Shown here: positions 59,061 through 60,906 of the stretch, piece by piece
Layout: the number at the start of each line of letters is the position of its first letter
Numbering within the stretch: position 1 is the stretch's first letter
Source of the DNA: Actinospica robiniae DSM 44927
GTDB taxonomy: Bacteria > Actinomycetota > Actinomycetes > Streptomycetales > Catenulisporaceae
Direction: 5' to 3'
NCBI RefSeq assembly: GCF_000504285.1
Contig: NZ_KI632511.1
Location: 2,415,372-2,479,371 of the forward strand
Length of the DNA: 64,000 bases
Made by a program: the position numbers and the translations under genes
Notes under the pieces: model-generated
Database searches by the model: none
What the model saw: the letters and a program-made list of their open reading frames with translations, nothing else
What the model was told of the DNA's origin: nothing

Positions 59061-60269
59061 ATGACCGTCGGTAGGGAGCGCATCACCATCGGCCTGGCCG
59101 CCGACGCGCCCGCGCAGGCCACCACGGCCGGCGCGGGCGCGGACGGCACCCGGGCCCAGCTGTTCGCCGAGGTGCTCACGGCCGGGCCGCTCTCGCGCAC
59201 CCAGCTGGCCCAGCGCACCGGCTTGTCCCAGTCGACGGTGACCAAGGTCGTCAATCCGTTGATCGAGGCCGGCTACGTGGCGGAGACCGGCGAGCACAGC
59301 GTGGGCGTCGGGCGGCCGCAGCGGCTGCTCGAGGTGGCGGCGTCGCGGCACGCGGTGATCGGGGTGAAGCTGGCTCCTGGCACTGTCACCGGCGTGCTCA
59401 CCGATCTGCGGGCGCAGGTGCTGTGCGTCCGGGAGCGGCGGCTGACGGCGGGTCATGATCCGGCGGCCGCGATATCTGCGGCCGCGGCCGTGGTGCTGGA
59501 CCTCATGGCTTCCGACCGCGGCGCTCCGGACCGGCTGATCGGCGTGGGCGTGGGCGTCGGCGGGCACGTGGACCCGGGCGCGGGGCGGGTGGTGCACTCG
59601 GGCATCCTCGGCTGGGACGAGGTGGCGGTGGCGGCCCCGCTGGGCGCGGCGACCGGCCTGCCCACGGTCGTCGGCAACGACGTGGACGCGCTGGCGGTGG
59701 CAGAACGCTGGTTCGGACTCGGCCGCGGCGTGGACACCTTCGCACTGGTGACGGTGGGCCCGGGGATCGGCTGCGGGCTGTTCCTCGGCGGCGAGCTGTT
59801 CACCGGATCCAGCGGCCTGGCCGGGGAACTCGGCCACATCCCGGTGCGCGCCGACGGCGAGGAGTGCGGCTGCGGACGCCGCGGCTGCCTGGAGACGGTG
59901 GCCTCGGACGAGGCGATCCTGCGTGGTATCGAACGCGCCGGCGGAGCACGCCCGGCCTCGATCGAGGACGCGGTACGCCTGGCCCGGGCCGGCGACGCGG
60001 CGGCGGCCGCCGCGTTCACCTCGATGGGTGAGGAGCTCGGCAGAGCCCTGGCAACCCTGGGCAATCTGATCAACCCGGCCCGGATCATCCTGGCCGGAGA
60101 GCGTGCCGACGCGTTCGACCTGTTCGGCCAGTCCTGCGAGAACGCCTGGCGTGCCCACTCGTTCTCCACCGCCTCGCGTGACTGCGCCCTGACGGTGGAC
60201 GTGACCGACGACGCGCAGTGGGCACGAGGCGCGGCCTGCCTGGTGATCCGGGAGGCAGTGGCGGGCTAG
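59061..60269 (+). CDS. ROK-family transcriptional regulator (paralogue 1)
   Basis: The protein has 402 residues. An N-terminal wHTH (LFAEVLTAGPLSRTQLAQRT, LSQSTVTKVVNPLIEAGYVA) precedes a ROK sugar-kinase-like domain with the zinc motif CGCGRRGCLE. The ATP-binding glycine loop of ROK kinases is not recognisable at VIGVKLAPGTVTGVLTDLRA, so it is a regulator, not a kinase. It is clearly paralogous to the ROK gene at 61.0 kb. An imperfect palindrome (ATTGCTGTTGG..., 58962-58983) lies upstream and may be its operator. Its TAG stop is inside the left flank of the MITE. Confidence 0.9.
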   Translation: MTVGRERITIGLAADAPAQATTAGAGADGTRAQLFAEVLTAGPLSRTQLAQRTGLSQSTVTKVVNPLIEAGYVAETGEHSVGVGRPQRLLEVAASRHAVIGVKLAPGTVTGVLTDLRAQVLCVRERRLTAGHDPAAAISAAAAVVLDLMASDRGAPDRLIGVGVGVGGHVDPGAGRVVHSGILGWDEVAVAAPLGAATGLPTVVGNDVDALAVAERWFGLGRGVDTFALVTVGPGIGCGLFLGGELFTGSSGLAGELGHIPVRADGEECGCGRRGCLETVASDEAILRGIERAGGARPASIEDAVRLARAGDAAAAAAFTSMGEELGRALATLGNLINPARIILAGERADAFDLFGQSCENAWRAHSFSTASRDCALTVDVTDDAQWARGAACLVIREAVAG

Positions 60270-60431
60270 TGTCCCTCACCGCAAATTCGCTGCAGAAATC
60301 GGCCCCAGCGCCCGCCTGGCTGCGTTGCCGAAATGCCCACAGAAGACCGAGTATGAGGGCATCCCGGCGCCTTGCCAGACGAACGCTGGAACCGATTTCT
60401 CATGCAGCGGTTTTCCGAATCGGGACACTAG
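60266..60431. mobile_element. 158-bp hairpin MITE with CTAG target duplication (IS701-like)
   Basis: The element occupies 60270-60427 and is flanked on both sides by CTAG (60266-60269 and 60428-60431). The ends are TGTCCC and GGGACA. Its two halves are imperfect reverse complements over about 70 bp each; GCTGCA, GAAATCGG, CCAGCG, CTGGC and ATGCCC recur in both arms. The centre is an 18-nt loop. It encodes nothing. A 4-bp YTAR target duplication is the hallmark of IS701-family transposition. It separates the ROK gene from the convergent zinc-ribbon gene, and each stop codon (TAG) lies in one CTAG copy. Confidence 0.8.
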
Positions 60432-60775
60432 TGCCGCCGGAAGTCCGAATGGGCCGACAGGCTCCGCCGACCTGACCTGCTCCCCCGAGGCGCGAAGTTT
60501 CCGTACGCGAAGTGCGGAACCTCGATCTCCAGCTCGGCGAGTTCCGCCGTCGATGACTCGTCCAGGCATTCCGGGTCGAACGCGGTCCCGCAGCCGGTGC
60601 ACAGCACGAACATACGGCTGCTTTCATGCACCGGGAGAACGCGGAACACGTGCTGCTCGGAGTGCAGTTCGCGAAGCTCGTATGCGCACTCTGCTTCACA
60701 GCGCAGGCAGAAGAACATGCCCTCCTCCACCCTGCGGACGGTTTTGCGGTACCCGGCCGAGAAAAGAAAGAACAC
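60428..60775 (-). CDS. zinc-ribbon protein
   Basis: The protein has 115 residues from GTG 60775, preceded by GGGGAG six bases upstream. VFFLFSAGYRKTVRRVEEGM is followed by the first zinc knuckle FCLRCEAECAYELRELHSEQ, then FRVLPVHESSRMFVLCTGCG with the second knuckle. This matches the actinobacterial zinc_ribbon_15 type. The C-terminus after PHFAYGNFAPRGSRS is basic and probably disordered. Function unknown. Its stop codon is within the right CTAG of the MITE; before insertion its stop and that of the ROK gene would have overlapped. Confidence 0.78.
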   Translation of the reverse strand: MFFLFSAGYRKTVRRVEEGMFFCLRCEAECAYELRELHSEQHVFRVLPVHESSRMFVLCTGCGTAFDPECLDESSTAELAELEIEVPHFAYGNFAPRGSRSGRRSLSAHSDFRRH

Positions 60776-60906
60776 GCGCGCTCCCCACCCAGCGTCCGAC
60801 GACAACCGTTGAACTTACCAGCACTCGCAGTGTCCTGCCACCACGTCCTCGCGCACGGACGAACCGGCACGAGTCGGGCGCGACGCCGTCGCCTCGAATT
60901 TTTTTC

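Follow-up and report, generated by a model that had tools for sequence, protein, structure and literature searches.

A mobile hairpin exactly between two convergent stop codons of Actinospica robiniae, one copy of a wider actinobacterial family with a conserved core and changing arms

A 160-base mobile hairpin sits exactly between the stop codons of two facing genes of Actinospica robiniae DSM 44927, in the 64,000-nucleotide stretch of DNA analysed here (the window), which is part of a single 9.9-Mb contig. The element is best read as an IS5-type hairpin that is non-autonomous and whose asymmetric core is unusually conserved, and sequence comparisons show it to be one copy of a wider actinobacterial family with changing arms around a similar middle. 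An odd single insertion can thereby be tied to a family of hairpins in which one sister arm type (type S) duplicates TA and three such types have IS5-type partners. As an insertion it is of an ordinary kind; the family is less ordinary, since conservation is seen in the middle and does not extend to the ends.

By inspection of the sequence, an imperfect long hairpin fills the space between two CTAGs, at 60266-60269 and 60428-60431. Folded as single-stranded DNA, 60266-60431 reaches -47.7 kcal/mol against a shuffle mean of -24.8 (sd 2.84; z -8.1), and none of 200 shuffles folds as well, which confirms the initial annotation's description of a hairpin MITE flanked by CTAG on both sides. Its inverted arms comprise stretches of 29 nt (76%) and 27 nt (81%) and, further in, a 15-nt pair (80%). 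The length of 158 bp given in that annotation has to be revised if TA is duplicated instead of CTAG (see below): the element then spans 60269-60428 and measures 160 bp, with arms of type A (GTGTCCC...GGGACAC) and its core on the plus strand. Folding and comparison of the inverted arms place the left palindromic arm at 60269-60310 and the right one at 60382-60428, around the asymmetric core common to the arm types at 60311-60381 (81 bits with core model R1), the one core that a scan with the model finds in the whole window. Outside the arms lie the two TAs of the presumed duplicated target, at 60267-60268 and 60429-60430. The gene on the left, a ROK-family regulator (PF00480; 59061-60269, plus strand), ends GGC-TAG inside the left CTAG, and the small gene on the right (60428-60805, minus strand), a zinc-ribbon gene according to the initial annotation and without a match in Pfam or NCBIfam, ends CAC-TAG inside the right one. 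Both CTAGs thus hold a stop codon, as had been noted from the letters. With a TA duplication, it is the element's own end bases that complete them: the left TA and the first G form the ROK stop, the right TA and the last C form, on the other strand, the zinc-ribbon stop.

The expected second copy elsewhere in the genome was indeed there. BLAST found five full-length copies including that of the window (92-100%), one copy at 83%, a 91% match to a 113-base part, and further fragments. When the six long copies are aligned, CTAG-like ends are common to them (three have one changed end) and their surroundings differ. In G004, a relative from the same family of organisms, copies are numerous and for the most part longer, at close to 199 bp. 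The element is therefore what one expects of a MITE: it is short, encodes no transposase, occurs in multiple copies in the host genome and in G004, and has inverted arms with TA on both sides, the duplication itself being proven for a sister type, at two empty sites. Short end patterns were less informative. The end motif CTAGTGTCCC, with at most one mismatch, occurs twice in the window against 2.6 expected, showing no excess, and CTAGYGTCCC has 18 occurrences in the host genome, fewer than the 70 of its reverse, a pattern with no CTAG in it. A longer end pattern with one mismatch is in clear excess in G004 (187 vs 77 for its reverse) and hardly at all in the host genome (149 vs 131). Phage and viral contigs, searched with a single S-type element and a single exact 21-mer, gave no match.

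Several peculiarities were seen among these repeats. Around L200 in G004 (G004:C233) there is a palindrome of about 60 bp that is made of type-A arms and has no core, and the type-A copies L190-L204 of the same genome often have one end that reads C-TG-G inward and not C-TA-G. In L043 (1306-1702) two hairpins of different arm types stand back to back with one CTAG in common. A composite palindromic repeat of about 1.3 kb (GTGCTCTCTCCTCGGTCGG...) surrounds different transposases at L008, L021, L054 and L063 in the host genome and at L084-L089, L336, L338, L342 and L344, and type-A hairpin fragments were found at its edge.

Two congeners match the element only across its middle, and those of the matching loci that were inspected hold other hairpins, with different arms and mostly with CTAG at the ends. 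A model of the roughly 70-nt core, with 12 candidates scored per genome, found it in 60 out of 394 genomes of the class, the host included, and in 18 of 138 genera (E <= 1e-4). In 35 of these 60 genomes (7 genera by our own count) the best match had E <= 1e-6; the other 25 are weaker. Thirty loci of stronger matches were looked at, and in one of them, L254, no motif could be located. Among Streptomyces plasmids, a type-S query hit 221 places in 89 records (E up to 1), 32 records having one place that covers at least 80% of the query. No published description of such a hairpin family turned up in a literature search that covered subscription titles in part.

The core is conserved to a degree that the ends are not. 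Among 19 representatives, hand-chosen from 25 planned (six were dropped, including L257, which was missing from the hits) and including the mutually related types C, C2 and C3, mean identity over 171 pairs was 0.73 in the core vs 0.51 when shuffled, and 0.55 vs 0.49 in the outermost 30 nt. Within each of these elements the outer arms nevertheless agree with their own complement at 0.73-0.90. The pairs of the core covary: 91.6% of cells are paired, and 25 cells have a two-sided change vs 8.3 in shuffles, so that compensatory change exceeds both controls. Such change could arise in a DNA hairpin as well as in RNA. Length is also kept, at 158-166 bp in 49 of 69 elements. The question that the family poses is thus why its middle is conserved though its ends are not.

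One answer is that the core functions as an RNA or as a hairpin bound by protein, of the host or of the element, and that the mobile arms are a vehicle that changes with whichever IS5 transposase is available. Core identity, covariation and constant length all speak for this, yet related sequences will exceed shuffles without any function, and covariation, as mentioned, is not particular to RNA. A search of Rfam with the hairpin gave no family at the gathering score, only weak miRNA and sRNA matches, and the core has no preferred orientation to the genes whose stops lie at the junctions described below (the stop-bearing gene is to its left in 13 cases, to its right in 11 and on both sides in one, by hand count with L003 turned). 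We consider this answer a real possibility, somewhat short of an even chance. More tentatively, one may go further and view the core as cargo, i.e. an old asymmetric module of about 70 nt that persists across actinobacteria inside short palindromic transposons and swaps its arms to suit one IS5-type transposase or another. Its own function might then be that of an RNA, of a site for a recombinase or host protein, or of a template-switch point at which one new end is copied to both sides. If true, this would reverse the ordinary MITE, the conserved part being carried and the inverted repeats being exchangeable. The core model had no match, at E up to 10, in eight IS loci.

Stop codons at the junctions are not peculiar to the window. 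An in-frame stop that ends a coding-like frame (60 codons, with G+C at the third position of at least 0.85 and above that of the other positions) was found at a junction in 25 of 72 elements from several genomes vs 5 of 50 background CTAGs (p = 0.0024), the background being drawn entirely from the host genome, 25 from the window and 25 from chosen, partly IS-rich loci. In the host genome alone 4 of 13 elements lie at stops, too few for a test. The family suggests a simple reason for this gathering at stop codons: the target is scarce (27 CTAGs in the window vs 177 expected from base composition) and the end base of the element rebuilds the stop. A scarce target together with survival at harmless sites could produce the excess, and a preference of the transposase need not be invoked.

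One may also consider that the hairpin has been retained for ending transcription of both convergent genes, as a bidirectional terminator or an RNase III site, its place then reflecting selection. A stable hairpin between two convergent stops and the enrichment of elements at stops are what this predicts, but a terminator scan found no T-tract terminator, survival at harmless sites could account for the enrichment, and the window copy is the only one of the 72 elements with stops at both junctions. We therefore consider selection for termination unlikely.

How the window locus looked before the insertion can be reconstructed in part. The initial annotation had both genes ending in a single palindromic CTAG before the element came in. 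On the zinc-ribbon side this agrees with an ortholog in the congener G001 (53% identical across residues 8-108 and longer at its tail). That ortholog adjoins a gene whose translation looks hisS-like by eye, and it ends CGGCACTAG, i.e. in CACTAG, with no hairpin; at the right junction the stop codon is therefore probably older than the insertion. The ROK gene has 81% identity (best segment) with one in Actinospica durhamensis and 72% with one in A. acidithermotolerans. That of G001, the closest relative, has GGACAG where the window has GGCTAG and reads on for some residues, so that on the ROK side an original overlap of the two stops is no more than plausible. The two genes stand side by side in neither congener; hence there is no true empty site for this locus.

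What is duplicated upon insertion was seen in type S. Its copies mostly have CTAA as their left and TTAG as their right flank, which makes a 4-bp direct duplication impossible there, and two empty sites show the duplication to be TA. In NZ_CP109439.1 (L260) the site reads ACC-TAG-CCGAG vs ACCC-TA-[element]-TA-GCCGAG in L106, with one extra C beside the L106 junction, and an empty IS3-family copy in NZ_CP109267.1 (L261) reads CCCCA-TA-G vs CCCCA-TA-[element]-TA-G in L096. A further IS3-type copy, L262, is also empty and has TG where L261 has TA. The initial annotation's 4-bp duplication of CTAG thus gives way to TA in type S. In CTAG-flanked copies such as that of the window a 2-bp and a 4-bp duplication look the same, and the TA duplication of type A is inferred from its sister. 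CTAG as the target of type A is upheld by the copy L002, the left flank of which runs to a single CTAG without an element in both G001 and G004, its right flank no longer aligning. Another type-A copy, L004, can be aligned with G001 by its two flanks, between which the element is absent there, although the exact site itself does not align. L011 has an element-free ortholog whose stop is TGA instead of TAG, and another empty-site candidate, L111, was discarded for its poor alignment.

Across the family, TA was found on both sides in 47 of 68 non-redundant elements, 41 of these being C-TA..TA-G, a tally that leans this way by construction since the boundary caller accepted no flanks other than TA, TG or CA at both ends, with a bonus for TA, for a C..G context and for A or G as first base. 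Among the remaining 21, TA stands on a single side in 13, five have TG/CA or CA/TG, two have CA/CA, and one (L006) has TC/GA, which is inverted and not direct; transitions after insertion are one possible cause of these flanks. The same L006 (1496-1661), an older copy, has the terminal 4-mers CTCG and CGAG, which complement one another in a way that suggests a correction of the palindrome. The sets of elements used here derive from 131 core matches in the fetched loci, excluding those for which no boundary was called, those whose terminal match was weak (apart from seven loci that were set by hand) and those with repeated flanks. Some boundaries were miscalled (e.g. L101, L104, L009, L198, L249 and L250); these remain, as non-stops, in the set of 72, and those with a first base other than A or G were dropped from the sets of 68 (flanks) and 69 (lengths).

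IS5-family elements with ends resembling those of sister types were found for types S (L209, 1690 bp, and L210, 1285 bp), C4 (L139, 1027 bp) and C (L142, 1048 bp). L209 and L210 (better end) agree with S at 16/18, L139 with C4 at 16/18 and L142 with C at 15/18, against medians of 7-8 over all types compared; two other IS, L131 and L138, reach 13 with type C2. The transposases of L139 and L142 score above the cut-off of NF033580 (IS5), and those of L209 and L210 reach 121 and 111 bits with NF033581, short of the 140 bits that this model requires. Both of these S-type IS have a diverged left end, and in L210 the left flank is AA. Elsewhere, three near-identical IS1182-like elements (L017, L018 and L024; family guessed by eye) each abut a type-C hairpin at a TA end, and the hairpin's orientation differs in L024, so this IS may land on hairpin ends.

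An IS with type-A ends (GTGTCCC; GTGTCCCGATCCGG) was not among the loci opened in the host genome (G000) and G004, i.e. nine DDE_5 and all 16 DUF4096 loci of the host, the opened DUF4096 and IS5_4-like loci of G004, and 30 of the 57 DDE_Tnp_1 loci of both. Only one of the 16 host DUF4096 (IS5) elements, L138, has clean TA-flanked ends, of a different sequence, and the IS5_4-like and the 30 DDE_Tnp_1 loci lack type-A ends. That the element is an IS701-family MITE with a 4-bp CTAG duplication, moved by a transposase with TGTCCC ends as first proposed, is most improbable: CTAG does fit the YTAR that IS701-family elements duplicate, and IS701-like DDE_5 genes are present in the host genome, but the inverted repeats at the nine DDE_5 places include no TGTCCC-type ends, the best match (L082) ending in TAGTGCTTTGTTAGGT, and the flanks and empty sites of type S largely refute such a duplication for that type.

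We consider it likely that the hairpin is a non-autonomous, MITE-type element whose palindromic ends are recognised by an IS5-family DDE transposase acting in trans. This enzyme would cut a CTAG-like target and duplicate TA, turning an empty C-TA-G into C-TA-[R...Y]-TA-G, and as the element starts with A or G a stop TA-R would be rebuilt at the junction. Some CTAGs are stop codons and CTAG is scarce in a G+C-rich genome, so that insertion at the end of a gene, where it should do little harm, would often be what survives. By analogy with its sisters type A would use the same kind of transposase, and at the window locus, if the ROK stop already lay at this CTAG, the rebuilding would have befallen two convergent genes at once.

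Among known systems the closest are MITEs of the IS5 family, in the IS427-like grouping with its TA target. Like these MITEs the hairpins are short, have no transposase, carry IS5-like terminal inverted repeats in the sister types and duplicate TA in type S; unlike them they are palindromic throughout, vary in their ends and arms, conserve an asymmetric internal core and, as to type A, have yielded no autonomous partner. IS701-family elements resemble them in a target that CTAG fits, whereas the ends of the IS701-like elements in the host genome differ and type S duplicates TA. REP/BIME sequences, which have RAYT (TnpA-REP) transposases, are likewise multicopy hairpins, some of which serve as landing sites for another IS, as type-C hairpins may do here; in contrast, the present family has a TA duplication, IS5-type ends and a longer hairpin.
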